From: Ruminococcus sp.
GTDB taxonomy: Bacteria; Bacillota; Clostridia; Oscillospirales; Acutalibacteraceae
Length of the DNA: 55,953 bases
Assembly: GCA_017416065.1 (NCBI GenBank)
Contig: JAFQDM010000036.1
Coordinates: 1 to 55,953 of the forward strand
Reading direction: 5' to 3'
The notes under the pieces are model-generated. The model was not told where the DNA came from. It saw only the letters and a program-made list of their open reading frames with translations, and did no database searches. Below are positions 1-12,923 of this stretch, in pieces. Both the position numbers and the translations under genes were made by a program. Each line of letters starts with the position of its first letter. Position 1 is the first letter of the stretch.

Positions 1-839
1 ACATTCTCAATGTGATTGACCTTATCAAGAAAAGCGAAGATAGCTCAAAATATAAGGTTTATGCAATGGTTGCTCCTTCAATCTCCAGCCAGTTTACATA
101 TGCAAAGCTGGGTCAGGTTGTAAAAGGTCTTAAAGAGCTTGGATTCTTTACAGTTATAGAGGCGGCTTTAGGTGCGGATATGGTGGCTCAGGCAGAGTCT
201 AAGGAACTTGCAGAAAAAGGCTTCCTTACAAGCTCTTGTTGTCCTGCCTTTGTACAGTATATCGAAAAATCCTTTCCTCAGCTTAAGGAGTTCGTTTCTC
301 ATAATCTTTCACCTATGGCAACATTGGCGAAATATATCAAGTTAACTGACCCAACAGCTAAAGTGGTGTTTATCGGTCCGTGTACTGCCAAAAAGGCAGA
401 GGCACAGCTTGAATCTGTAAAGCCTTATGTTGATACGGTGCTCACCTTTGAGGAACTTCAGGCACTTTATGACAGCCGTGATATTGATATTACGACTCTT
501 GAGGAAGATGTTCTTGACAATGCCTCATACTACGGCAGAATATTTGCTCGCAGCGGCGGACTTTCAGACGCAGTAAAGCAGGGACTTGCTGAACAGAATA
601 TTGATTTTGAACTTAAAGCAATCCCCTGTGACGGTATTGAAGCATGCCGAACTGCTCTTCTCAGAAAGAGCAAAAATGTGCTTGACGCTAACTTTATCGA
701 AGGTATGGCATGTGTTGGCGGTTGTATCGGCGGTGCAGGTTGCCTTACTCATGGCGAAAAGAACAAATCCCAGGTTGATGAGTACGGCAAAGAAGCACTT
801 GAGAAAACTATTGGTGATGCAGTATCTTTGTTAAAATAA
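1..839 (+). CDS. [FeFe] hydrogenase catalytic (H-cluster) domain, 5'-truncated by window edge
   Basis: Reversible H2 production/oxidation in the cytoplasm, usually coupled to ferredoxin. The reading frame is open to the left edge, so the N-terminal ferredoxin-like part lies outside. All three H-cluster motifs are visible: TSSCCPAF (about residue 73 counting from the GTG at 12), GPCTAKKAEA (about 122) and MACVGGCIGGAGC near the end. The L1/L2 wording fits the monomeric group B enzymes of fermentative Clostridia rather than classic group A; this subgroup call is from memory of motifs and is less certain than the family. Followed by an intrinsic terminator, so it ends its own transcript. Confidence 0.93.
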   Translation, partial: ILNVIDLIKKSEDSSKYKVYAMVAPSISSQFTYAKLGQVVKGLKELGFFTVIEAALGADMVAQAESKELAEKGFLTSSCCPAFVQYIEKSFPQLKEFVSHNLSPMATLAKYIKLTDPTAKVVFIGPCTAKKAEAQLESVKPYVDTVLTFEELQALYDSRDIDITTLEEDVLDNASYYGRIFARSGGLSDAVKQGLAEQNIDFELKAIPCDGIEACRTALLRKSKNVLDANFIEGMACVGGCIGGAGCLTHGEKNKSQVDEYGKEALEKTIGDAVSLLK

Positions 840-886
840 AATTCTAAGTTTTGAGTGAATAAAGAGTATTATATATGTTTAGGCTC

Positions 887-930
887 ATAGCGGTCACCTC
901 CTACCTGATTTCTTTTGCATTGACCGCTAT
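887..930. repeat. 10-bp perfect inverted repeat enclosing a Shine-Dalgarno on the minus strand
   Basis: ATAGCGGTCA (887-896) and TGACCGCTAT (921-930) are perfect inverted copies. Read on the minus strand the structure contains AGGAGGTGACC followed directly by an ATG (889-887) and a 14-codon frame (MSLNIYNTLYSLKT). A sequestered strong SD of this kind resembles type I toxin mRNAs of Firmicutes, but the peptide is not hydrophobic. Function unknown. Confidence 0.5.
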
Positions 931-939
931 TTTACCAAA

Positions 940-976
940 AAGCAAGGTTACTATTAATTAGTAGCCTTGCTTTTTA
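940..976 (+). terminator. Intrinsic terminator after the hydrogenase gene
   Basis: A 14-bp stem (940-953 with 959-972, one G-U pair), 5-nt loop, then a T run. A-rich upstream flank would let it also work on the minus strand. Confidence 0.85.
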
Positions 977-1053
977 TTGATTCCTTCGCAAAAATGTAAG
1001 TGTTGCAGTATATGGGAATGGAATTATTTATATCCTTCGTAATATGAAGGGTA

Positions 1054-1082
1054 TTGCAAAATAGATTTTGTTGGTGTATAAT
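1054..1082 (+). promoter_or_regulatory. Sigma-A promoter of the thiamine operon
   Basis: TTGCAA (1054-1059), 17-bp spacer, TATAAT (1077-1082). Start of transcription expected near 1089, just upstream of the TPP riboswitch. Confidence 0.8.
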
Positions 1083-1099
1083 CAACTTACAATTTAACA

Positions 1100-1192
1100 A
1101 ACGGGAGCTTGTATTACAGGCTGAGAGGAAGGTGTGACCTTTGACCGAGAACCTGATTTGGATAATGCCAACGTAGGGATGCCTGATACAAG
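1100..1192 (+). promoter_or_regulatory. TPP riboswitch (THI element) aptamer
   Basis: The two conserved TPP-binding segments are recognisable: CTGAGA (1121-1126) with its GGGAGC partner strand upstream (1103-1108), and ACCTGATTTGGATAATGCCA (1151-1170) followed by CGTAGGGA. It sits between the promoter and a terminator hairpin and precedes thiS, so thiamine pyrophosphate is expected to shut the operon off by premature termination. Confidence 0.96.
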
Positions 1193-1217
1193 GATATTGG
1201 GAAGAACAAGGGATTTT

Positions 1218-1249
1218 AGGAAGTTACCAAATCGGTAACTTCCTTTTTT
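1218..1249 (+). terminator. Expression-platform terminator of the TPP riboswitch
   Basis: Perfect 11-bp stem AGGAAGTTACC / GGTAACTTCCT with 5-nt loop and six T. It lies directly 5' of the thiS Shine-Dalgarno, so control is at transcription elongation. Confidence 0.9.
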
Positions 1250-1267
1250 GTTTTTCAGGAGGTTTTT

Positions 1268-1462
1268 ATGGTAAAGATCAATGGCGAAGAACTAAACATT
1301 GCAGGCAAGAGTATTTCAGAATTCCTTGCGACAACAAATTATGACCCAAAACGAATTGCTGTTGAACGCAATGGTGATATTGTACCCAAAGCACAGTACG
1401 ACGAAACTATGCTATGCGATGGCGATGTGGTTGAAGTTGTCAGTTTTGTAGGAGGTGGTTGA
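1268..1462 (+). CDS. thiS: Sulfur carrier protein ThiS
   Basis: Small beta-grasp protein (64 aa) that carries sulfur as a C-terminal thiocarboxylate to thiazole synthase. The C-terminus is Gly-Gly-Gly after VSFV, which is the required terminal di-glycine for adenylation by ThiF. Good SD (CAGGAGG) ahead of the ATG. First gene of the TPP-riboswitch operon; its stop overlaps the beginning of the thiF frame. Confidence 0.95.
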   Translation: MVKINGEELNIAGKSISEFLATTNYDPKRIAVERNGDIVPKAQYDETMLCDGDVVEVVSFVGGG

Positions 1463-1463
1463 T

Positions 1464-2099
1464 CTGATTCCTACAAAAGAACAGTGGCACAGAGCTTTAT
1501 GCGAAAGACACGGAGAAGATATACAAAGATATTTTGAATCTGCCACAGTTGCAATCTGCGGACTTGGAGGGCTTGGCTCAAATATAGCTGTTGCGCTTGC
1601 TCGTGCAGGTGTTGGTAAACTTGTACTTGTTGATTTCGATAAGGTGGATATAACAAATCTTCACCGACAGCAATATAAGGCAGACCAGATCGGCAGGTAC
1701 AAAACAGAAGCATTAGCTGAAAACCTGAAAGAAATAGCACCATATACTGAACTTGCTTTGCATACTGTCCGGGTGAATGACGAAAACGCTGTGAATTTAC
1801 TTCAGAATGCAGATATAATCTGCGAAGCATTTGACGATGCAGAGTGTAAGGCACAGCTTGTAAACACCGTGCTTGAAAAAATGCCTCATAAGTATATTGT
1901 GGCGGCTTCAGGTATGGCAGGGTTTTCAAGTGCCAATACCATAAAAACAAGAAAAATAACAAGTAAATTCTATTTGTGCGGTGATGAGGTAAGCGATGCA
2001 AAGGACGGCGTTGGTCTTGTGTCCTCCCGTGTAATGATTTGTGCTGCACATCAGGCACATATGGTTTTGAGAATTTTAGCAAATGAATTTGAAGTTTAA
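1464..2099 (+). CDS. thiF: Sulfur carrier protein ThiS adenylyltransferase ThiF
   Basis: E1-like enzyme that adenylates the ThiS C-terminus. The nucleotide-binding GLGGLGSN and the [14 protein letters not shown] segment are typical of the ThiF/MoeB/E1 fold; the short length (about 210 aa) matches clostridial ThiF. The first GTG of the frame (1455) lies inside the SD sequence AGGAGG (1450-1455) and cannot be the start. The next codons are CTG (1464) and ATT (1467); CTG, giving M-I-P-T-K-E-Q, has correct spacing, so a non-standard start is proposed. Start uncertain, product firm. Confidence 0.9.
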
Positions 2100-2116
2100 G
2101 AAAGAAGGTTATAAAA

Positions 2117-2887
2117 ATGAATAACGACAAACTTATTATTGGCGGTCATGAGTTCAATTCTCGTTTTATCCTTGGCTCGGGTAAGTATTCTATGAAACTT
2201 ATCGAAGCCGCAGTAAAAGATGCTGGTGCTGAGATTATTACTCTTGCAGTGCGTAGAGCAAACACTAAAGATCAAGAGAATATCCTTGACTATATACCCG
2301 AAGGTGTTACCTTGCTTCCTAATACATCAGGTGCAAGAAATGCACAGGAAGCAGTGCGAATTGCTCGTCTTGCAAGAGAGCTTGGTTGCGGTAACTTTGT
2401 AAAAATTGAAATCATGCGTGATTCAAAGTATCTGTTGCCCGATAATCAGGAAACTATAAAGGCTACCGAGATACTTGCAAATGAGGGTTTCGTAGTTATG
2501 CCCTATATGTACCCTGACCTAAATGTAGCGAGAGATTTAGTAAATGCAGGTGCGGCTTCCGTTATGCCTTTAGCATCTCCCATAGGCTCTAACAAAGGGC
2601 TTGCCACAAAAGAGTTCATACAGATACTTATTGATGAAATTGATGTGCCGATTATCGTGGATGCAGGTATCGGCAGACCTTCGCAGGCTTGCGAAGCTAT
2701 GGAGATGGGCGTCTCTGCTATTATGGCTAATACAGCGCTTGCAACAGCAGGAGATTTGCCTTTGATGGCATCAGCGTTCAAGAATGCAATAGAGGCAGGC
2801 AGAAAAGCTTACCTTGCAGGACTTGGCAGAGTGCTCACCCGTGGTGCATCCGCCTCTGACCCTCTCACAGGCTTTTTGAGAGATTAA
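2117..2887 (+). CDS. thiG: Thiazole synthase ThiG
   Basis: TIM-barrel enzyme that joins deoxyxylulose 5-phosphate, dehydroglycine and ThiS-borne sulfur to form the thiazole phosphate. 256 aa, full length. The Schiff-base lysine is K96 in FVKIEIM; phosphate-binding glycine-rich segments ([19 protein letters not shown]) are intact. ATG preceded by AGAAAGAAGG. Forms the synthase together with ThiS, ThiF and ThiH encoded beside it. Confidence 0.96.
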
Positions 2888-2896
2888 GGAGCAAGT

Positions 2897-4150
2897 ATGG
2901 AAAATCAATTTTTCGTAGATTCTGGGCATTTGTCAGCAGAAGCACTCAATAAAAAACACAGACTTGAGAATGATCCTTCATTTCGTACCAATCATATGGA
3001 GTATATGGAAGGTATGGAAATTATAGAATCCGATGTTTGTTCAAATGTAATGGAGCAGAGGAAGTCTTATGATTACAGTAAATACACGGCGGCTGATGTA
3101 AAGGCAGCACTTGAGCATGATGTATGTACTATTGAAGATTTCAAGGCTCTTTTATCTCCGGCGGCTAAACCTTTTCTTGAGCAGATGGCACAGAAAGCAA
3201 GACTTGAAACAAGCAAGCATTTTGGTAATACAGTGTATCTTTTTACTCCTTTGTATATAGCGAATTACTGTGAAAACTACTGTGTGTACTGCGGATTTAA
3301 CTGCTATAACCACATAAAGAGAATGAAACTTAATATGGAGCAGATTGAAAAAGAAATGCAGGTTATTGCAGACAGCGGCATGGAGGAAATTCTGATTCTG
3401 ACAGGGGAGAGCAGATCTAAAAGCGATGTATCATATATAGGCGAAGCCTGCAAATTGGCAAGAAAGTATTTCCGTATGGTGGGGCTTGAGATATATCCTG
3501 TCAACACAGATGAATATAGATGCTTGCACGAGTGCGGTGCTGATTACATAACTGTATTTCAGGAAACCTATGATTCCGATAAATACGAAACTCTTCATCT
3601 TCTGGGACATAAGCGTGTGTGGCCTTATCGCTTTGACGCACAGGAAAGGGCTCTTATGGGTGGAATGAGAGGCGTTGCTTTTTCGGCTTTGCTTGGACTT
3701 TCTGACTTTCGTAAGGATGCATTGGCAAGTGCCTTGCACGTCTATTATTTGCAGAGAAAATATCCTCACGCAGAAATGTCTTTGTCTTGCCCAAGGCTCA
3801 GACCTATTATCAATAACGATAAAATAAACCCTTTGGATGTAGGAGAGAGCGAGCTTTGTCAGGTTCTTTGTGCCTACAGAATTTTTCTTCCCTTCGTGGG
3901 AATCACTGTGTCCTCCCGTGAGAGCGCGCAGTTCAGAAACGGTATAGTGAAAATCGCCGCAACAAAGGTTTCGGCTGGTGTTTCTACAGGAATAGGGGAC
4001 CACGAAAGTAAATACACAGGTAAAGAGACAGAAGATGTTCAGGGTGACGAGCAGTTTGAAATTGACGATAACCGAAGTCTTGATAAGATGTATAAGGATA
4101 TTGAGTCCGAGGGTCTCCAGCCTGTGCTTAATGATTATCTGTATGTGTGA
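2897..4150 (+). CDS. thiH: 2-iminoacetate synthase ThiH (radical SAM)
   Basis: Cleaves tyrosine by a 5'-deoxyadenosyl radical to give dehydroglycine and p-cresol, the anaerobic alternative to glycine oxidase ThiO. Radical SAM cysteines are C125, C129 and C132 in CENYCVYCGF. The C-terminal half (SSRESAQFRN, AGVSTGIGDH) is typical of ThiH. At 417 aa it is about 40 residues longer than E. coli ThiH at the N-terminus; the first ATG has GGAG at a usable distance, so the extension is probably real. Ten bases separate it from thiE. Confidence 0.95.
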   Translation: MENQFFVDSGHLSAEALNKKHRLENDPSFRTNHMEYMEGMEIIESDVCSNVMEQRKSYDYSKYTAADVKAALEHDVCTIEDFKALLSPAAKPFLEQMAQKARLETSKHFGNTVYLFTPLYIANYCENYCVYCGFNCYNHIKRMKLNMEQIEKEMQVIADSGMEEILILTGESRSKSDVSYIGEACKLARKYFRMVGLEIYPVNTDEYRCLHECGADYITVFQETYDSDKYETLHLLGHKRVWPYRFDAQERALMGGMRGVAFSALLGLSDFRKDALASALHVYYLQRKYPHAEMSLSCPRLRPIINNDKINPLDVGESELCQVLCAYRIFLPFVGITVSSRESAQFRNGIVKIAATKVSAGVSTGIGDHESKYTGKETEDVQGDEQFEIDDNRSLDKMYKDIESEGLQPVLNDYLYV

Positions 4151-4160
4151 GGAAAAGAAA

Positions 4161-4796
4161 ATGAAAAGTTTTGATTCAAGTTTATATTTTATAACCGACA
4201 GTTCTAACTATACAGAACAGGAATTCTTAAGCCGTGTCGAAAAGGCGTTGCAGGGTGGTGTAACACTTTTGCAGCTTCGAGAAAAGGATAAAACAACCCG
4301 AGAGTATATTGAGCTTGCCGAAAAAGTTCATAACCTTACTCAAAAATATAATGTTCCTCTGATTATTGACGACAGAGTTGATGTGGCACTTGCCATAGAT
4401 GCTGAGGGTGTTCATGTTGGACAGAGTGATATGCCTGTAACTTTGGCAAGGAAACTTATGGGGAAAGACAAAATTGTAGGTGCAACAACAAAGACCGTTG
4501 AACAAGCAAAAGAAGCCTTTGAGCAGGGTGCAGATTATCTTGGTGTAGGTGCTATTTATCCTACCACAACAAAGGTTAAAACTGTGCTGACCTCTACTGA
4601 TACTCTCAGAGGTATTTGCAGTGCTGTACCAATACCTGTTAACGCAATCGGCGGACTTAATAAAGACAACATTGATATTCTTGAGGGAATTGAGATATCA
4701 GGAATCTGTGTGGTATCCGCAATAATGAAAGCTGATGACCCTAAAACGGCAACAGAAGAACTCAAAGCAAGAGCAAAGGAACTGAACTTATGTTAA
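4161..4796 (+). CDS. thiE: Thiamine-phosphate synthase ThiE
   Basis: Couples thiazole phosphate with HMP pyrophosphate to thiamine phosphate. 211 aa TIM barrel with QLREKD near residue 33, IIDDRVDVA, GVHVGQSDMP and the pyrophosphate loop GVGAIYPTTTK. The frame is open further upstream into thiH, but the ATG at 4161 follows GAGGAAAAG and begins exactly at the family N-terminus, so it is chosen. The 3' end overlaps the next gene by 7 bases. Confidence 0.95.
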   Translation: MKSFDSSLYFITDSSNYTEQEFLSRVEKALQGGVTLLQLREKDKTTREYIELAEKVHNLTQKYNVPLIIDDRVDVALAIDAEGVHVGQSDMPVTLARKLMGKDKIVGATTKTVEQAKEAFEQGADYLGVGAIYPTTTKVKTVLTSTDTLRGICSAVPIPVNAIGGLNKDNIDILEGIEISGICVVSAIMKADDPKTATEELKARAKELNLC

Positions 4797-6238
4797 AAGG
4801 AGCAATATTTGATTTTGATGGAACACTTGTTGATTCAATGTTCATTTGGGAGACTTTTGGTGAGGAATATTTAAAAAGTCTTGGCAAAGAGCCAAAAGAA
4901 AACTTGCGTGAAACTTTTGCTACATTTACGTTGGAACAGGCGGCAGAGTATTATCAGAAACATTATGAAGTAACACTTTCCGTGGAAGAAATAGTGACAG
5001 GTGTAAACCGAATGGTTGCAGAAGCTTACAGAGACAAAGTAGGCTTAAAAACGGGTGTTGCTGAATTTTTGCAAAAGCTTTATTCAAAGGGCGTTAAAAT
5101 GTGCGTTGCCACTTTGACTGATAAGAATCTGGTTGATGAAGTTCTTGAAAGATTGGGTGTTCGAAATTATTTTTCTGAAATCTTCACAACTGCTGAGGTC
5201 GGTCACAGTAAAAAAGAACCGCATATATATCGTGTGGCTCTTGAATATATGGGTACAAATAAAAGCAATACCGTTGTATTTGAGGATGCTTTTTATGCGC
5301 TTATGACCGCAAAAAACGATGGATTTAAGGTAGCAGCTGTGTATGATAAGTCTGAGACAAATCAGGTGATGATGAGAGCAAATGCTGATTATTATATATC
5401 TGATTATTCTCACTTTGATTTTACTGAACAGATTAAAACGGCTCTTACTATTGCAGGCTCTGACTCGAGCGGTGGAGCAGGGATTCAGGCGGATATCAAG
5501 ACTATGACAATGAACGGTGTTTATGCTATGAGTGCCATAACTGCACTGACCGCACAAAACACAATGGGTGTCAAAACTATTCAGGAGTCAACACCTGAGT
5601 TCTTAAAAGAACAGCTTGATTCCGTATTTGAGGATATATATCCCAATGCTGTAAAAATCGGAATGGTGTCATCAAGCGAACTCATAGGGGTTATTGCAGA
5701 AAGACTTCGATTCTATAATGCAAAAAATGTAGTTGTAGACCCTGTTATGGTTGCGACAAGCGGTTCTTCTCTTATGAGAAGTGATGCAGTAGATACATTG
5801 TGCGAAGAACTGTTGCCTCTATCGACTCTTGTAACACCCAATATCCCAGAAGCACAGGTTCTTTCAGGCTTAGATATAAACAGTAAAGAGGATATGGTTA
5901 AGGTAGCAAAGCAAATTGGAGATAACTTTCATTGTGCCGTTCTGCTTAAAGGTGGTCATAGTATAAACGACGCAAACGATTTACTTTACTCAAATGGTGA
6001 AACGGTTTGGTTTGAGGGAAAACGAATTGATAATCCAAATACCCACGGCACAGGTTGTACCCTTTCAAGTGCAATTGCTTCAAATCTTGCAAAAGGATTT
6101 TCTCTTGAGGAAGCTGTAAAAAGAGCCAAAAATTATATCTCAGGTGCATTATCTGCACAGCTTGATTTAGGACAAGGTTCAGGTCCTATGAAGCATAATT
6201 TTAATTTGTCGGGAAAATATTCAGAGGTGGCAGAATGA
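4790..6238 (+). CDS. thiD: Fusion: HAD-superfamily phosphatase + hydroxymethylpyrimidine (phosphate) kinase ThiD
   Basis: Two enzymes in one 482-aa chain. Residues 1-213 are a HAD hydrolase of the beta-phosphoglucomutase/phosphatase type: nucleophile motif DFDGT (D8, D10), T109, K141/K142 and VFEDA. Residues 217-482 are a full-length ThiD kinase: IAGSDSSGGAGIQAD at 221-235 and the catalytic THGTGCTLSS near the end. ThiD makes HMP-PP for ThiE. The HAD part may act on a thiamine intermediate (for example a phosphate ester of HMP or thiamine) but its substrate cannot be read from sequence. Overlaps thiE by 7 and thiN by 4 bases. Confidence 0.93.
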   Translation: MLKGAIFDFDGTLVDSMFIWETFGEEYLKSLGKEPKENLRETFATFTLEQAAEYYQKHYEVTLSVEEIVTGVNRMVAEAYRDKVGLKTGVAEFLQKLYSKGVKMCVATLTDKNLVDEVLERLGVRNYFSEIFTTAEVGHSKKEPHIYRVALEYMGTNKSNTVVFEDAFYALMTAKNDGFKVAAVYDKSETNQVMMRANADYYISDYSHFDFTEQIKTALTIAGSDSSGGAGIQADIKTMTMNGVYAMSAITALTAQNTMGVKTIQESTPEFLKEQLDSVFEDIYPNAVKIGMVSSSELIGVIAERLRFYNAKNVVVDPVMVATSGSSLMRSDAVDTLCEELLPLSTLVTPNIPEAQVLSGLDINSKEDMVKVAKQIGDNFHCAVLLKGGHSINDANDLLYSNGETVWFEGKRIDNPNTHGTGCTLSSAIASNLAKGFSLEEAVKRAKNYISGALSAQLDLGQGSGPMKHNFNLSGKYSEVAE

Positions 6239-6876
6239 AACGATGTGTTGTTGTCGGTGGTGCAGACATAAACAACTACGAATATATCAGAGATTGTCTT
6301 TGTGAAGATGATTATATAGTCTTTTGTGACAGCGTATTGAAACACATGGATAGCCTCGGAGTAAAACCAAATCTGATTGTGGGAGATTTTGATTCTTATG
6401 AGAATCCGAACCTTGATGTTGAAACAATCGTGCTGCCTTGTGAAAAGGATGACACGGATACTGTGTTCGCTGTTAAAGAAGCGATCAGAAGAGGCTTTGA
6501 TGAATTCCTTTTAATTGGTGTTGTTGGTGCAAGACTCGACCATACTCTGGGCAATGTTTCAATATTACTGTACCTTGATTCTATTGGCAAACGAGGTATT
6601 ATTATTGACGATTACTCTAAAATTGAGGTCGTATCCGATAAGCCTGCATATATTGAAGATTTTTATGCTTTCTTTTCTTTGCTTAATATTACAGGTGTTG
6701 CAAAAGGCGTGACTATAAGAAACGCAAAGTATCCTCTTGAGAATGCAGAGATTACTTGTGAATATCAGTATGCAGTCAGCAACGAAGTGCTTTGCGGAAA
6801 TGTTGCTGAAGTCACGGTGAAGAATGGAAAATTGCTGTTGGTAAAAACCTTTGCAAATGGATTAAATCAGGTATAA
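6235..6876 (+). CDS. thiN: Thiamine pyrophosphokinase
   Basis: Makes TPP from thiamine and ATP, the last salvage step. 213 aa; shows PNLIVGDFDS, the KDDTDT metal/ATP site and GARLDHTLGN, the three hallmarks of the family. Starts at an ATGA overlap with the preceding gene, so translation is coupled. Presence of this enzyme means the operon covers both synthesis and salvage. Last gene of the operon. Confidence 0.95.
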   Translation: MKRCVVVGGADINNYEYIRDCLCEDDYIVFCDSVLKHMDSLGVKPNLIVGDFDSYENPNLDVETIVLPCEKDDTDTVFAVKEAIRRGFDEFLLIGVVGARLDHTLGNVSILLYLDSIGKRGIIIDDYSKIEVVSDKPAYIEDFYAFFSLLNITGVAKGVTIRNAKYPLENAEITCEYQYAVSNEVLCGNVAEVTVKNGKLLLVKTFANGLNQV

Positions 6877-6879
6877 GGG

Positions 6880-6908
6880 CAGAGGGGGCATTATTAAGTG
6901 CCCCTCTG
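6880..6908 (+). terminator. GC-rich hairpin after thiN (weak T tract)
   Basis: CAGAGGGGGCA and TGCCCCTCTG pair around an 8-nt loop four bases after the stop codon. No T run follows, so it may stabilise the 3' end rather than terminate by itself. Confidence 0.5.
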
Positions 6909-7322
6909 TATTGATGGGATTTGTCCTGTGGATTACTACCATACCTGATGCTTTCAAGTCCAGTGCTTATCAACATTTTGGAAATTCCTAATTTATGTAC
7001 AATCTATCTATCGATTTTTTACGTATAATTTTAATTTTATATATATTCTTTGAGAGTCGAATTGTTATTCGGCTCTTTTTTTATTTGTTTTTTGCTTTAT
7101 TTGTCATTATATAAATAGGGAACTCCTTAACCGTGATGACCACGGGGATAGCCTGTCTCGGCAGGAAGCATTTTTCATAGGTCAGCTGAGATTGCAGTCA
7201 AGTGTAAAGAATATATGTAAGCATTACTTAATATCAATCTATAGAGTTATATGTAATATGTGCTTAATCATATATTGGTGTGAATAATCTTAAACTTTGA
7301 AGAAAGCGATGGTAGTTATCGG
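6909..7322. other. Intergenic region with a terminator and two small hairpins, no gene seen
   Basis: Very AT-rich. Besides the terminator at 7053-7083 it has two adjacent hairpins: CCGTG/CACGG (7131-7135, 7141-7145) and CCTGT/GGCAGG region (7152-7165). No coding frame longer than about 20 codons with an SD is visible on either strand, and no cotJC 3' fragment was found here. Confidence 0.6.
7053..7083 (+). terminator. Intrinsic terminator
   Basis: AGAGTCGAA (7053-7061) pairs with TTCGGCTCT (7068-7076), one G-U pair, 6-nt loop, followed by a run of T. Confidence 0.8.
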
Positions 7323-7454
7323 ATGATTGAAAAAAATGAAGCAGTTAAGTCTGCAGATGAGAGAGATTGTACTCTTATTGTCAGCGAGCTTGTTGCACGG
7401 ATCATTTCCCTGCAGATTGCATCGGAAGTTGCTCAGTCAGAAAAGATTGATTGA
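7323..7454 (+). CDS. Small acidic protein upstream of the recombinase, unknown function
   Basis: A 43-codon frame from an ATG at 7323, beginning MIEKNEAVKSADERDCTLIV and ending with QSEKID. The sequence has helical, protein-like composition (repeated acidic and aliphatic residues) and lies 81 bases ahead of the recombinase on the same strand. SD is weak. I do not recognise a family. It could be an accessory protein of the recombinase (directionality factor or expression control) or a gene remnant. Confidence 0.45.
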   Translation: MIEKNEAVKSADERDCTLIVSELVARIISLQIASEVAQSEKID

Positions 7455-7535
7455 GGGACAGAGCTGTATGCCGTATAATTTAAGTGTTATGCGGCGTACG
7501 GAGGACTTTGGCGATGTTCGGAAGGAGGAAATAAA

Positions 7536-9086
7536 ATGCCAAAAGTTGCAATATACGTACGTTTGTCTAAAGAAGACCGTGACAAGCAGTTGCCGACTGA
7601 CGATTCGGGGAGCGTTCTAAATCAGCACATGATGCTTTTAGAGTTTGTTCGTAAGAATAACTGGGAATTATATAAGGCTTATATAGACGAGGATTTCAGC
7701 GGTTCGGATAGGGAAAGACCGGAATTTAACGAGATGATCAAGGATGCGCAAGCGAAGAAATTCGACATCATTCTTTGTAAAACTCAATCGAGATTCGCAA
7801 GGGATATAGAGTTGGTTGAGAAGTATCTTAACTACTTGTTTCCTATCTGGGGCATCCGATTTTTGAGCCTGGTCGATAATGCTGATAGTGATAATAAGGG
7901 CAATAGAAAATCTCGACAGATCAATTCTATGGTCGATCAGTGGTATCTCGAAGATTTGTCTGAAAACGTGAAGGCAACGCTGGCTTCTAAAAGACGCCAG
8001 GGACTTTGGGTTGGTGCGTTTGCACCCTATGGGTACAAGAAGGATCCGAATAACAAGAATCATCTTGTTGTTGATGAAGAAGCCGCAGAGGTAGTTCGAT
8101 ATGTTTTCGACTTATATCTGCAAGGCTTGGGATATAATTCAATAGCTAAAAGACTGAACAGAGAAAGAATTCCCAATCCGGCTACATATAAGAAACAGCA
8201 CAATATGCCTTTTCAGAATTGTAACGGAGAATGTTCGGATATCTGGCATTCGTATTCAATTTTCAATATAATAAGGAATCGGATTTACATAGGAGACACC
8301 GTTCAGGGTAAAACGACGAATGTTTCATATAAGTCAAAGAAGAAGCGACAGATACCTGAGAAGGATTGGTGTGTCGTAGCAGGTACTCATGAACCTATTA
8401 TTGATATGGACATATGGTTCGATGTTCAGGAAATGCGAAAAAACAGAAGACGAAGTGATAAGACAGGTAAGCATGGTGTGTTTGCCAATAAGCTGTTCTG
8501 TATGAATTGCGGCAGTTCAATGCATTCTTACATAACAGCACAAAAAAAGTATTATCGCTGTCATACTCGCTGTGTTGCAAAAGACAAGTGTTCTGATGGC
8601 GCTTGTATATCTCATTCTGTTTTGGAAAAAAATGTTCTGTCAGAAATCCGTGCACTCTATGATAAGTATTTCGATGTAGATATTGTTACTCGTAATGTTG
8701 TGCTCAGGGACAACTCAAAAGAAAAGATTGAGATGCTTGAGAAGAAATTGTCTGATATAGAAGCAGGTATCGCAAAGCTGGACAAGCGTGTTGATGCTAT
8801 GTACTATGACAAATTGGACGGAAATATTTCTGAAGATGAGTATTCCCGAAGAAAGACTGAGTGTTACAAGGATAAGGAGCAGTTACAGAGTCTTGCTCCG
8901 GAGTATAGAGCCAAGCTTGAAAAACTTCAGAATCGACAGGACGAAACTGATATAATCATGCAGTATATTGCCAAGAATAAAGAATTAAAATCTCTTGATC
9001 GCTTGACAGTTGATATACTTATCGATTATATTGTAATTGGTGGAACGAGAGATAACAGAATTATCGACATACACTGGAAATTTTAA
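7536..9086 (+). CDS. Large serine recombinase (site-specific integrase/excisionase)
   Basis: 516 aa, complete. N-terminal resolvase domain with catalytic serine S11 in YVRLSKED and the conserved R-rich SRFARD segment (about residues 84-89); then the recombinase domain (GAFAPYGYKKD, NRERIPNPATYKK), a zinc ribbon with CMNC (about 324) and further Cys, a long coiled coil (about 395-475) and a terminal IDYIVIGG segment. This is the TnpX/phiC31-like class that inserts and excises mobile elements between short att sites. ATG with SD GGAGGAAATAAA. Its stop lies 4 bases from the end of the truncated cotJC on the other strand. Base composition is poorer in G+C than the cotJ genes beside it. Confidence 0.95.
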   Translation: MPKVAIYVRLSKEDRDKQLPTDDSGSVLNQHMMLLEFVRKNNWELYKAYIDEDFSGSDRERPEFNEMIKDAQAKKFDIILCKTQSRFARDIELVEKYLNYLFPIWGIRFLSLVDNADSDNKGNRKSRQINSMVDQWYLEDLSENVKATLASKRRQGLWVGAFAPYGYKKDPNNKNHLVVDEEAAEVVRYVFDLYLQGLGYNSIAKRLNRERIPNPATYKKQHNMPFQNCNGECSDIWHSYSIFNIIRNRIYIGDTVQGKTTNVSYKSKKKRQIPEKDWCVVAGTHEPIIDMDIWFDVQEMRKNRRRSDKTGKHGVFANKLFCMNCGSSMHSYITAQKKYYRCHTRCVAKDKCSDGACISHSVLEKNVLSEIRALYDKYFDVDIVTRNVVLRDNSKEKIEMLEKKLSDIEAGIAKLDKRVDAMYYDKLDGNISEDEYSRRKTECYKDKEQLQSLAPEYRAKLEKLQNRQDETDIIMQYIAKNKELKSLDRLTVDILIDYIVIGGTRDNRIIDIHWKF

Positions 9087-9090
9087 TATT

Positions 9091-9540
9091 TTATATTAGG
9101 CGGAGGAAGACGTTGTGTTTAGCAATGGCTTCCTCCGCTGCCATATCCTCGTGCAAATCGGTGATGGGGTCGCCTTTTACCTGAATATATGCTGCATTAA
9201 AGGGGACGCCTGCTGCAGAGGAGGGATACACACCTGTTGTGTGGTCTACAAAGTATGCGTCGAAGCCAGCTGCTTTGAGCTGTTCTTCGTTCAGATTTTT
9301 TGTAAGCTGATAAACAATAGAGCCTATCATTTCAAGGTGGCCAAGCTCCTCGACGCCAATGTCGTTAAGTGTAGCTTTGAGTTCAGGAATTGGCATAGTA
9401 AAGCGTTGGCTCAGATATCTCAGCGAGGCGGCAAGCTCACCGTCGGGTCCGCCGTACTGTGAGATTATTATCTGTGCAAGCTTGGGGTTTGTCTGCTTGA
9501 TCTTGACAGGGTACTGAAGTCTTTTTTCATATACAAACAT
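9091..9540 (-). pseudogene. cotJC: Spore coat protein CotJC, C-terminally truncated
   Basis: Manganese-catalase-like (ferritin-fold) coat protein of the inner spore coat. Residues 1-137 match the family well (YEKRLQYPVK, QYGGPDGELAASLRYL, EELGHLEMI, YIQVKGDPI). Family members are about 190 aa, continuing after AAEE with KAR... and a final helix with RFLRERE and a metal-binding His. Here the family match stops at E137 and 12 unrelated residues (AIAKHNVFLRLI) lead to a stop beside the recombinase. The missing helix carries a metal ligand, so this copy should be inactive unless rearranged. Third gene of cotJA-B-C. Confidence 0.85.
9100..9138. other. Putative recombinase attachment junction (39-bp interrupted palindrome)
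   Basis: GCGGAGGAAG (9100-9109) and CTTCCTCCGC (9129-9138) are perfect inverted copies, 19 bases apart. The right arm is the codons Ala-Glu-Glu of cotJC, the last residues matching intact family members; the left arm is sequence foreign to cotJC. The length and symmetry are compatible with an att half-site pair of a large serine recombinase. Inferred, not proven. Confidence 0.5.
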
Positions 9541-9546
9541 ACTGCT

Positions 9547-9792
9547 TTATACTCCTTCCCAGGGCCAGGGGTCGTTTACCCATGTCCACTTTTTTGAGTT
9601 GTCGTTTGATTTCTTCAAAGGTCCGTATTTCCTCTCGTATTCTTCTACAAGGGGATTTAGTTTTTCTTCGCAGTCTCTGATTTTCGCAATAGTAGCCTCG
9701 CACTTGGGATGAGTGTCAAGGTAGAGCCTGTATTCGTGTATTGCAAAGGCATAGGTTGAGATCTTTCTGAGTAGGATTTCTCTTGTAGTCAT
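9547..9792 (-). CDS. cotJB: Spore coat protein CotJB
   Basis: 81 aa, full length. Family pattern: LLRKISTYAFAIHEYRLYLD at the N-terminus, P-x-C-containing middle, and the WTWVNDPWPWEG tryptophan-rich end. Needed for assembly of the CotJ polypeptides into the coat in Bacillus. Overlaps cotJA by 4 bases, 6 bases before cotJC, so one operon, read in the mother cell during sporulation in the known systems. Confidence 0.93.
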   Translation of the reverse strand: MTTREILLRKISTYAFAIHEYRLYLDTHPKCEATIAKIRDCEEKLNPLVEEYERKYGPLKKSNDNSKKWTWVNDPWPWEGV

Positions 9793-9989
9793 CGTTTGTC
9801 ACCTCTGCATTTTCCGCCATACCAGGGCTTGTCAAGGCAGGGATACATGGTTCCTGCCTCAAAGCCTCTGACGGCGGTGTAGCTTTCTGCACCGTAAGGC
9901 TGAAAAGGAACATAAGCCATTGCAGGAACTGTTTTGTCCGGCAATGCTTTTATTCCGTAGGAATGCATTACATCATTTATAAAATCCAT
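9789..9989 (-). CDS. cotJA: Spore coat-associated protein CotJA
   Basis: 66 aa. Recognised by MAYVPFQPY and GFEAGTMYPCLDKPWYG, the conserved core of CotJA. ATG preceded by AAAGGAG. First gene of the cotJ operon. No convincing sigma-E promoter could be identified between it and the divergent amylase; a 7-bp inverted repeat CAACAGG/CCTGTTG (10003-10009, 10028-10034) lies in its leader. Confidence 0.92.
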   Translation of the reverse strand: MDFINDVMHSYGIKALPDKTVPAMAYVPFQPYGAESYTAVRGFEAGTMYPCLDKPWYGGKCRGDKR

Positions 9990-10223: not shown

Positions 10224-12923
10224 ATGAAAACAAAAAGACTCACAAGCCTGATCTTTGCTGTGGTTATGATAGCAAGCTGTGCTTTTTCCGCAGGGTTTAC
10301 CGCATCTGCACAGACGCCTTCTGAGGACTACGGTCTTGGATACACGGCAAACGACGGATTGATCCTTCAGGCGTGGAACTGGTCCTATTCGGAAATTCAA
10401 AATAACCTTGATGCTATCGCAGGGGCAGGCTTTACCACTATTCAGATTTCTCCTCCAACTGAGCTCAAGGAAGCTACAAAGGGAGTAAAGATCCTCAGAA
10501 AAGAGAATGATAACGGATGGTGGATGATGTATCAACCTGCGGCATACGAGCTTAATCAGAGTGAGGATAACGCTCTCGGTACAAAGGATGAGCTTATCTC
10601 TATGATAAATGCCGCACACGAAAAAGGTCTGTTTGTTATTGCGGATGCTGTTATCAACCATCTGGGTAACTCTGAGACAGGTGACTATAAAATCAATGCA
10701 AATGCTGTGCCGAGTGATGCTAATGCTGTAGATTATCTATGTGAAAGAGCATGGGAGTTTGAAAGCTCAAGGGCTATTATTGATGCAGGAGCATTCCATT
10801 ATCCCTATGCAAACTGCAAATATAACGACACCGGTGCTTTTGATTGCACTCAGAATGCTGTGTCGCTGCTTCCTGACCTTGATACAAGCAAGCCTGTTGT
10901 TCAAGAGACTATCCTTGACTATTGGCACGAGTGCATAGATGCAGGAATCGACGGCTTCCGTATTGATGCCGCAAAGCACATCGAAACAAAGTATGACGGA
11001 GAGTACGCCTCTGATTTCTGGGATGTGCTTATGTATGACGGCATAAACGGCAAGCAGGGTATTTATCCTTATGCAAAGGATAAATACGGAAAAGACCTCT
11101 ATATGTACGGTGAGATTCTCAACACCGTATCCACAGAGCGTTCCTTCACCTGGTATCTTGAGTATATGAACATCACCAATTCCACAGCATTCAACGATAT
11201 AAGACTTGCTGTGAATAACGGCAATGCAAAGAATGCGGTGCCCGAATCCTTCAACAACGGAATGACAAACAAAACTGCCGTGCTGTGGGATGAATCTCAC
11301 GACACTTATATGACCGATTGCAAGTCCAAGCACCTTCCCTCCGTGAAGCTCCTTACAAAGCGCTGGGCTTGTATGGCTTCCCGTGCGGATGTGGTTTGCA
11401 TGTATCTTGCTCGTCCCACAAACAGGGCCTCTGAGGTCTACGACCTTGACCTGGGTACAGCATACGATACAGCGTGGAACGATAAAGAAACTGCAGTAAT
11501 AAACAAATTCCACAATCACTTCCAGGGTGCAGGGGAGGCTGTTTCCAGCTCAGGTAACATTGCAATTATTGAGCGTGCAGACTCAGGAGTTGTGCTTGTA
11601 AACTGCAAGGGCGATGCTGCGGACATCAGCGTGCCGCTTCAGGCTTTAGCAGACGGTATGTACATCGACCAGATGACGGGTAATACCTTTACCTGCGAGA
11701 ACGGAAGCATCACAGGTACAATGGGAGAAACCGGCATTGCAGTAATTTATAACCCAGAAACTCCCGTAGTAAACGCTTCCAAGGAGAGCTGTAAGTTCAC
11801 AACCAATACTATCACGGTTGATGTTGTTGCAAACGGCGCAGTTGCTTCTTATCAGGTGAATGATGAAGAGCCTGTAAAATTCACGGGCAAAAAGACGTTG
11901 GAGCTTGCTCCTGTTTCCGATGAAGGAGAGGTTATGGCTGATATTGGACTCCTTGGCGATTCGGACGGCAATAATGCTGTGAGCATTAAGGACGCAACCC
12001 TTATTCAGAAGCACGTGGCAGATATTCAGATTATTGATGACTACCTTCTGTCCCTTGCAAACGTTACGGGTGACGTTACGGCAGATAACAAGCCAAATGT
12101 TAACGTCAAGGATGCAACAGCAATTCAGAAGCATCTGGCAGATATTCCTACAGGCCTTGATATAGGAAAAATGATCTCTGAGGTACGTCCTCCAGAAACA
12201 GGTGATGTAACCCTGACACTCACTTGCGGTGATGAGATCAAGACTTATACTTACACAAAGCTAAAGAGAGAAGACGTAAATTGGGTGAAGTTTGATAATT
12301 CTCAGACTCAATGGTCCAACGTTTACTGTTATGCATTCCATGAGGAAGGCGGACAGAACAATGCCTGGCCCGGAATCCTGATGACAAGGTTGGAGGATGA
12401 CATCTGGTACTACGAGCTTCCCAAGGAGCTTGAGGGCGCAGTGGTTATCTTCTCAGATAATGTTCTGGGTACAGGTCAGCAGACAGGCAACCTGCCTACT
12501 CTGAACCCTGAGACGGGAGAAGCCTACTCCAAGCATTTTATCTTCACAAACGGCAAGTGGAACGCTATCGCGGCTGACGGCTCATACACAGAGCTTGAGG
12601 AAACGCGTTCAGGTTATTACGTTGTATTCACAGATGTTCTTGGCTGGAAATCCGGCACAAAGGGTAAGATGTGTTACTACGCATGGGGAGGAGGTCCCTC
12701 AATTGCCTGGCCTGGTGTTGAGATGGAGCTCATAGGCCAGGATGAAAACGGCCATAACCAGTATAGTGCTTGGATCGACAGAGGCTACACTAACATCATT
12801 TTTAACAGTAACAATAAGCAGACGGCAGATCTGACCGTTCAAGGCAATTACAACTATGTTCCTAATGCAACCACAGGAAGCATTACCTGCGATATGATAG
12901 AGATCACACCCCCTGAGGAATAA
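10224..12923 (+). CDS. Secreted GH13 alpha-amylase with dockerin and two starch-binding modules
   Basis: 899 aa. Signal peptide 1-29 (SAGFTASAQ cleavage area). GH13 catalytic domain about 40-510: region I DAVINH (D141, H146), nucleophile D248 in GFRIDAAKH, acid/base E297 in YGEILN, and D360 in ESHD. A type I dockerin with two Ca-binding repeats spans about 577-645 (GDSDGNNAVSIKDA and a second copy ending VKDATAIQKHLAD). Two CBM26-like modules follow, about 684-785 and 797-899, each with W/Y-rich starch-binding patterns (YCYAFHEEGG, NNAWPG; YYAWGGG, IAWPG). It hydrolyses alpha-1,4 links in starch outside the cell and should dock onto a cohesin scaffold. The matching cohesin protein is not in this window. 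Own promoter, hairpin at the end. Confidence 0.95.
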   Translation: MKTKRLTSLIFAVVMIASCAFSAGFTASAQTPSEDYGLGYTANDGLILQAWNWSYSEIQNNLDAIAGAGFTTIQISPPTELKEATKGVKILRKENDNGWWMMYQPAAYELNQSEDNALGTKDELISMINAAHEKGLFVIADAVINHLGNSETGDYKINANAVPSDANAVDYLCERAWEFESSRAIIDAGAFHYPYANCKYNDTGAFDCTQNAVSLLPDLDTSKPVVQETILDYWHECIDAGIDGFRIDAAKHIETKYDGEYASDFWDVLMYDGINGKQGIYPYAKDKYGKDLYMYGEILNTVSTERSFTWYLEYMNITNSTAFNDIRLAVNNGNAKNAVPESFNNGMTNKTAVLWDESHDTYMTDCKSKHLPSVKLLTKRWACMASRADVVCMYLARPTNRASEVYDLDLGTAYDTAWNDKETAVINKFHNHFQGAGEAVSSSGNIAIIERADSGVVLVNCKGDAADISVPLQALADGMYIDQMTGNTFTCENGSITGTMGETGIAVIYNPETPVVNASKESCKFTTNTITVDVVANGAVASYQVNDEEPVKFTGKKTLELAPVSDEGEVMADIGLLGDSDGNNAVSIKDATLIQKHVADIQIIDDYLLSLANVTGDVTADNKPNVNVKDATAIQKHLADIPTGLDIGKMISEVRPPETGDVTLTLTCGDEIKTYTYTKLKREDVNWVKFDNSQTQWSNVYCYAFHEEGGQNNAWPGILMTRLEDDIWYYELPKELEGAVVIFSDNVLGTGQQTGNLPTLNPETGEAYSKHFIFTNGKWNAIAADGSYTELEETRSGYYVVFTDVLGWKSGTKGKMCYYAWGGGPSIAWPGVEMELIGQDENGHNQYSAWIDRGYTNIIFNSNNKQTADLTVQGNYNYVPNATTGSITCDMIEITPPEE

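Follow-up and report, generated by a model that had tools for sequence, protein, structure and literature searches.

A large serine recombinase element at codon 136 of the spore coat gene cotJC in a Ruminococcus genome, probably one case of a wide class of sporulation-gene-intervening elements

Introduction

According to the available parts of the sources cited here, elements that intervene in sporulation genes have been described for few genes, mostly in strains of Bacillus and Clostridium, and are already known in sigK, spsM, spoVFB, gerE, and yabG (PMC5595907, PMC10747680, PMC5025042, PMC4191935). In the skin element of Clostridioides difficile, a recombination directionality factor under sigma-E and SpoIIID confines excision to the mother cell (PMC5025042). 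The accessible text on SPbeta describes a prophage in the spore-envelope gene spsM of Bacillus subtilis whose excision rebuilds the gene (PMC4191935; PMC10747680), and partial texts also cover gin in gerE (B. cereus), yin in yabG (Clostridium botulinum), and vfbin in spoVFB (B. weihenstephanensis) (PMC5595907; PMC10747680). Another source, available in part, places phi027 of C. difficile R20291 next to the CotJC homologue CDR20291_1465 (PMC11222575). No earlier report of an interrupted cotJC was found in the open full-text literature, a coverage that leaves out most subscription papers and all bioRxiv preprints. Here we analyse a 55,953-bp stretch of Ruminococcus sp. (GCA_017416065.1, contig JAFQDM010000036.1, positions 1 to 55,953; hereafter the window) in which a large serine recombinase (LSR) gene adjoins a truncated cotJC. 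From sequence comparison, we consider it probable that a skin- or SPbeta-like LSR element lies in cotJC and would be excised in sporulation to rebuild the gene, as one case of a wide class. The window corresponds to contig C35 in a draft genome (1.86 Mb, 36 contigs, 84.8% complete). Ruminococcus bromii, a member of the same genus, forms spores according to the part of the source available (PMC5814915).

Results

On the minus strand, cotJA (9789..9989) and cotJB (9547..9792), both intact by profile match, are followed by the 5′ part of cotJC (order from 9989 to 9133), and the LSR gene (7536..9086, plus strand, 516 aa) converges on them. The truncated cotJC open reading frame (ORF; 9091-9540, minus strand, 149 aa) matched Pfam Mn_catalase over residues 1-138. 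Likeness to whole relatives is confined to codons 1-136, from the ATG to the crossover GAG (9133..9540, minus strand); the last codon fitting the family is that of Glu136 (GAG, 9133-9135), and the element-derived tail consists of 13 foreign residues and a stop (9091..9132, minus strand). The initial annotation had stated that cotJC leaves its family abruptly near A-A-E-E, which the Pfam match and the relatives bear out. It had also placed the cotJC stop 4 bases from the recombinase stop, in agreement with the ORF coordinates; its break stands, with the position moved from residue 137 and 12 foreign residues to 136 and 13. Uninterrupted cotJC frames in relatives were about 200-244 aa long, one of them 176 aa, and the most similar (92%, genome G020) has cotJC and an amylase gene arranged as in the window. 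A naturally short cotJC was rejected because none of these relatives ends at the break residue.

A Pfam search of the same genome detected a second Mn_catalase piece on contig C21 (84,731 bp), at C21:83218-83373 on the minus strand, covering Pfam positions 149-200. It reads QKARTTYDNILRYCDD...CFKKDK up to its stop (whole piece, QKARTTYDNILRYCDDPDVIDPIRFLREREIVHYQRFGENLRLLTDKLDSKNFYAFNPSFDKKCFKKDK and then the stop), and the contig ends 1.36 kb beyond it. The missing 50 or so codons had been predicted to lie at the other end of the element as a minus-strand fragment beginning with K-A-R and flanked by the same core; the piece on C21 begins with Q-K-A-R and has the core GAG. It lies outside the window, as expected under the suggestion that the element runs past the left edge.

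In the cotJC sense, the window junction reads GCAGCG-GAG-GAAGCCATTGC-TAAACACAACGT and the C21 junction ACGTTGTGTTTA-TAATCTCTCTCA-GAG-CAGAAAGC. The crossover core CTC (GAG in the cotJC sense) occupies 9133..9135 in attL, in the window, and recurs in attR at C21:83368-83370. The attP arm ACGTTGTGTTTA occurs once in the window (9110..9121, plus strand) and is found again, inverted, at C21:83383-83394. Together the two form a perfect inverted repeat with 12-bp arms, centred on the GA of the core GAG, which is the pattern of a split LSR attP. As in known sporulation-gene-intervening elements, attL and attR thus share a core and together give an attP with inverted half-sites, and a sporulation gene has its two parts in frame at the element ends, here on the separate contigs C35 and C21 and in other genomes on one contig. 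The junctions in the relative G028 were similar, with the element reversed so that the recombinase adjoins the 3′ part. Because the junction overlaps of the window genome (GAG), G028 (CAGA), and G015 (GAGCA) share GA, this is likely the crossover dinucleotide. The window part of the element (1..9132) had a GC content of 0.399 over 1-9086 vs. 0.454–0.455 over 9990-55953; its other end is formed by the last 1361 bp of C21 (GC 0.398).

The inverted repeat GCGGAGGAAG...CTTCCTCCGC (9100..9138), which the initial annotation took for a feature of the junction, is present and of a common kind. Perfect 10-bp inverted repeats with loops of up to 30 begin at 38 window positions (longer repeats counted more than once), so we take it as no evidence; it was not seen at the G028 junctions either and was rejected as an att feature.

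The recombinase has the domain order Resolvase, Recombinase, and Zn-ribbon (PF00239 + PF07508 + PF13408), which places it in the LSR class, and it matches PHROG 95 (E 1.5e-97); the element thus encodes its own site-specific recombinase. When 84,980 species genomes were scanned with three aligned recombinases as the query, 31 loci were obtained. All 15 loci matching at least 500 residues at 50% identity or more (two of them the already known relatives G028 and G015 themselves) adjoin a part of cotJC broken at codon 136, and none of the other 16 does, in line with the earlier proposal that this recombinase targets cotJC. The break at codon 136 is shared by G028 and 13 further genomes. A partial recombinase match was present in an R. 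bromii YE282 record (FMUV01000019). A viral search gave 79 loci, with two full-length matches (L151 and L152, 51–52% identity). With G262, G151, G081, and the window genome added to the 15 scan loci, 19 codon-136 recombinases entered the tree described below. The recombinase adjoins the 3′ part of cotJC in 14 of them and the 5′ part in five (the window, L126, L128, L244, and L248). The attP arms are nearly symmetric, so a changed sense of the central dinucleotide could flip the orientation of the element (L066, L067, L126, L128, and L244 compared).

Two further breakpoints recurred in cotJC, at codons 29–32 (core near TA[CT]GG[CT]GG) and 62–65 (core near GG-AC-GA[AG]). In a quick tree of 78 LSRs with SH-aLRT support, those at codons 29–32 formed one clade of 12 (support 100), and 24 of the 25 at codons 62–65 fell into one clade (support 99); the 25th row, L243_3376, was read in the wrong frame (end branch 7.9) and kept in the tree counts. 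Seventeen of the 19 codon-136 LSRs grouped with the two viral contigs (support 100). Site labels required six changes on the tree vs. a mean of 42 when shuffled. The three sites lie at, or up to six codons from, Glu35, Glu65/His68, and Glu136 of cotJC, which align with Glu35, Glu66/His69, and the corresponding Glu of the Mn catalase structure 1o9i. We take the metal ligands of the Lactobacillus plantarum catalase to be Glu35, Glu66, His69, Glu148, and His181. The plain reading is that the LSRs became fixed on highly conserved codons.

Some unusual recombinases were also encountered. One member of the codon-62–65 clade, in L072:6977-9181 (G048), is a 734-aa fusion with a DNA alkylation repair domain (Pfam DNA_alkylation, E 2.6e-14), and a relative of it in L239 (G165) matches in two pieces. 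Viral contig L179 combines a distant LSR (28%) with a cotJC fragment of residues 30–66 and is perhaps another phage in cotJC.

Among 59 relatives searched, cotJC was interrupted in 20 of the 49 genomes with an orthologue (hand count; G003, G005, G018, G036, G051, and G057 were recognised from one part only). Of the genomes sampled across the order, 145 could be classified, and cotJC was interrupted in at least 41 of these. This sample comprised 217 genomes searched, 171 of them with a match, and was counted from the best matches listed. An N-terminal query gave a readable frame in 142 genomes (36 shorter than 165 aa, 104 longer, and two set aside at contig ends), and five genomes (G228, G247, G200, G180, and G072) were added from split matches at codons 29–32. 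The short frames were checked as DNA in 34 of the 36 genomes, G135 and G153 excepted. At 24 fetched loci (23 places, L133 and L269 being the same), neighbouring cotJC parts lie on one contig in the same strand and order, 3.1–16 kb apart; coordinates indicate wider gaps in G247 (31.5 kb) and G009 (37.7 kb). Three genomes carry a double interruption, with all three pieces ordered on one contig and an LSR of the matching group at each break: G081 (62–65 and 136, on a 1.55 Mb contig), G070 (29–32 and 136), and G009 (29–32 and 62–65). Six more (G076, G209, G059, G071, G180, and G072) imply two breaks from incomplete pieces.

Comparison of the recombinases with their hosts indicates that the elements have moved between species into the same codon. 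Between G015 and L130, the synonymous divergence (dS) was 0.06 for the recombinases and saturated for the host cotJC copies, and G133 and G217, members of different families, have identical recombinase proteins and cotJC copies with a nonsynonymous divergence (dN) of 0.175. Viral contig L152 (29-kb record) is 99.2% identical to the element in G262 over 3242 bp, a stretch that begins at the core of the cotJC junction and runs until the G262 contig ends. In L152, attP is whole. L152 also has PHROG matches to tail proteins, endolysin, holin, and integrase. From the intact attP, the phage genes, and the match to the integrated element, at least one member of the family is a phage caught both free and inside cotJC. 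The L152 recombinase matched 807 records of a phage collection, all at less than 60% identity. In viral contig L151 (54.7-kb record), an attP-like palindrome adjoins the family recombinase, and no integrated partner was found.

Most family members have a small ORF of 33–67 aa about 130–260 bp upstream of the recombinase, and eleven of these ORFs cluster by BLAST; some members (L124 and L132) have none. In the window, this position is taken by a 43-aa ORF (7323..7454, plus strand) without a PHROG match, which by eye resembles the ORF in G028, yet both fall outside the BLAST cluster. The ORF is a candidate for the recombination directionality factor.

Between attL and the contig edge, the window carries thiS, thiF, thiG, thiH, thiE, a HAD-thiD fusion, and thiamin pyrophosphokinase (1268..6876, plus strand), together with an iron-only hydrogenase-type gene of which only the 3′ part lies within the contig (12..839, plus strand). 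The C21 side bears an RtcB remnant and a LacI-type regulator. We regard the thiamine and hydrogenase genes as probable element cargo on sequence grounds. It is possible, if doubtful, that the element belongs to cotJC and these genes are host DNA moved in by a later rearrangement with its breakpoint inside the element. C21 and C35 are not joined; thiG occurs at 57% identity or more in 13 of 58 other relatives searched; and among the contexts examined, two place thiamine genes near cotJC as host DNA, in G010 at about 12 kb from an intact gene and in G047 beyond the element, about 2.7 kb after the 3′ part. In the window genome, a search for RtcB found only the last 100 or so residues, just inside the C21 junction (C21:83565-83873, L064), and G028 has a whole rtcB two genes upstream of cotJA. 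Against such a rearrangement, GC is low throughout 1-9000 (0.38–0.43 per kb) and at the C21 end as well, vs. 0.45–0.46 outside the element, and the related G028 element carries another cofactor operon just inside its junction (L115:3796-6674), composed of nadA, a gene for an FAD-binding protein read as nadB, and nadC.

The cofactor genes differ between the window element (thiamine) and the element closest to it (NAD), a hint that vitamin genes may be a recurrent type of cargo. In G015, the 12-kb element in cotJC (L067:7653-17583) encodes a replication-associated protein (ORF2/G2P type), an FtsK-type ATPase, and an AIPR protein, and looks small and mobilizable with possible defence cargo. Other elements carry a citrate transporter (G001) or a neurotransmitter-type symporter (G032). 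Within the visible part of the window element (10.5 kb, with not every ORF scanned and the middle of the element missing), no virion or lysis genes were recognised.

An unlikely alternative to rejoining is plain insertion into a dispensable gene, the site being safe and cotJC dead. The available part of one source reports no significant coat defect in C. difficile insertional mutants of two CotJC homologues (PMC11222575), the frame is uninterrupted in 104 of the 145 classifiable genomes, and the insertion in the window genome could be recent. A dead gene accords poorly with the state of the 3′ parts: all 14 codon-136 3′ parts examined (that of G081 is outside this set) have a frame that stays open until a stop close to the natural end. 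In distant pairs, the median dN/dS of the 3′ part was similar in both groups, at 0.080 among split genomes (11 of 91 pairs usable) and 0.092 among intact ones (33 of 190); 49 of 280 intact-split pairs were usable. For the 5′ part, 43 of 190 intact-intact, 30 of 160 intact-split, and 4 of 28 split-split pairs could be used. Since dS was saturated in most distant pairs, we placed weight on G032 and G034, whose insertion is taken as shared because the upstream flank, the element, and cotJC all align at 92.6–95.5% identity. In this pair, the recombinase had a dN of 0.036 and a dS of 0.36, the cotJC 3′ part (180 codons) a dN of 0.002 and a dS of 0.32 (dN/dS near 0.006), and the 5′ part (35 codons) a dN of 0 and a dS of 0.10. 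These values indicate strict selection on cotJC while it is split. The Spo0A C-terminal domain was present in all 26 genomes tested (24 split and two intact).

It is very improbable that the two parts act as separate polypeptides assembling into one protein without DNA rejoining. Both parts are conserved, and seven of the 14 codon-136 3′ parts have an in-frame upstream TTG or GTG. The other seven lack any upstream in-frame ATG, GTG, or TTG, an upstream ATG occurs in none of the 14, and the break sits at a predicted metal-ligand codon. The 3′ part of the window genome has an in-frame stop just upstream, four open codons between, no ATG, and two internal GTG codons. An assembly misjoin at 9.1 kb or contamination of the bin, the former a worry of the initial annotation, is the least credible alternative: the genome is a draft and both contigs end near the junctions, but these fit attL and attR with matching core and arms, the break recurs in G028 and the 13 further genomes, and the one-contig genomes G259, G149, and G200 are also split, at the other two sites.

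An alpha-amylase gene with CBM26 adjoins the cotJ genes in the window (10224-12923). Its relative in G028 has a Pfam dockerin, and the window copy shows a dockerin-like stretch by eye only. It fits an amylosome component as in R. bromii.

Discussion

The observations can be combined into the following scheme. As judged from the sequence, a mobile element encoding an LSR has entered cotJC at the codon of Glu136 (GAG). Its recombinase joined attP, with the 12-bp inverted arms and GA crossover, to a 3–5 bp match in a conserved stretch of the gene and left cotJC as two in-frame parts at the element ends. During sporulation, the same recombinase and a small element-encoded directionality factor may excise the element from the mother-cell chromosome, and joined cotJC would then be made where it is needed, the forespore retaining the element. 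Selection on the split gene, the free phage form of a relative, and analogy with known systems all suggest excision in the mother cell. Across the class, each LSR clade uses one of the three cotJC sites (29–32, 62–65, or 136) and has spread between species into the same codon, one member being a phage. Such elements may be tolerated because cotJC is silent in growing cells and can be restored.

Several points weigh against this scheme. The case for rejoining is drawn wholly from comparison of sequences, and selection after insertion was seen at another site and in another species than the insertion in the window. The C21-C35 stretch is not bridged, the two ends of the element being on separate contigs. 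The directionality factor is proposed from its position. The recombinases of G151 and G081 act at codon 136 and fall outside the main clade, and the viral contigs L151 and L152 have no cotJC nearby, carrying an attP-like palindrome beside the recombinase instead. The search for sporulation promoters was not convincing. Patterns of the sigma-E and sigma-K types were sought upstream of 76 LSRs, with a spacer of 13–16 for the strict sigma-E-like pattern. The strict pattern was found at five of 18 codon-136 elements, a number reached in none of 200 resampled sets, and elsewhere at one of 12 (codons 29–32), none of 25 (codons 62–65), and none of 21 (other LSRs). These five matches are near-identical copies at one position in one lineage, and the line of evidence was dropped; the upstream regions of the window and G028 recombinases lack the strict pattern, and looser sigma-E-like and sigma-K-like patterns were not clearly above resampled sequence.

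Excision that rebuilds cotJC still appears to us the best explanation. A bolder interpretation, for and against which we see an even balance, is that the splitting of cotJC is programmed in this order of gut and rumen bacteria. LSR lineages, each at one of three conserved codon stretches beside Mn-catalase-type metal ligands, would maintain as many as two DNA “introns” in this gene of about 200 codons, and every sporulation would remove them from the mother cell, which is disposable. The gene would then serve phages, small elements, and cofactor operons (thiamine and NAD) as a common landing site that the host tolerates, as damage to it is free in growth and repaired on cue. One coat gene, interrupted in more than a quarter of the classifiable sampled genomes at three fixed sites by distinct recombinase clades, with double breaks and one phage in both states, offers a natural replicated system for asking whether such elements are parasites that learned harmlessness or belong to the spore programme. 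The class also supplies many recombinase/att pairs, and an annotated split cotJC should not be called a pseudogene by default.

The cotJC elements share with skin in sigK (B. subtilis and C. difficile), as far as the available text describes it, an LSR-encoding element in a sporulation gene, inverted-repeat half-sites, and a conserved core. Unlike skin, they have a coat gene of the Mn-catalase family as a target in place of a sigma factor, with three sites in one gene, and their excision is proposed from comparison. The G262/L152 phage is the likely cotJC counterpart of SPbeta, in another host order and another gene; unlike SPbeta, the window element has no recognised phage genes in its visible part, a trait it shares with gin in the accessible descriptions (PMC5595907; PMC10747680). 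The split cotJC also differs from the phi027 locus, where the neighbouring catalase gene (678 bp) is described, in the part of the source available, as bacterial and downstream of attR (PMC11222575). Finally, gin, yin, and vfbin have one target site each in the texts available, whereas cotJC is entered at three sites, sometimes at two of them at once, in at least 41 of 145 classifiable genomes.

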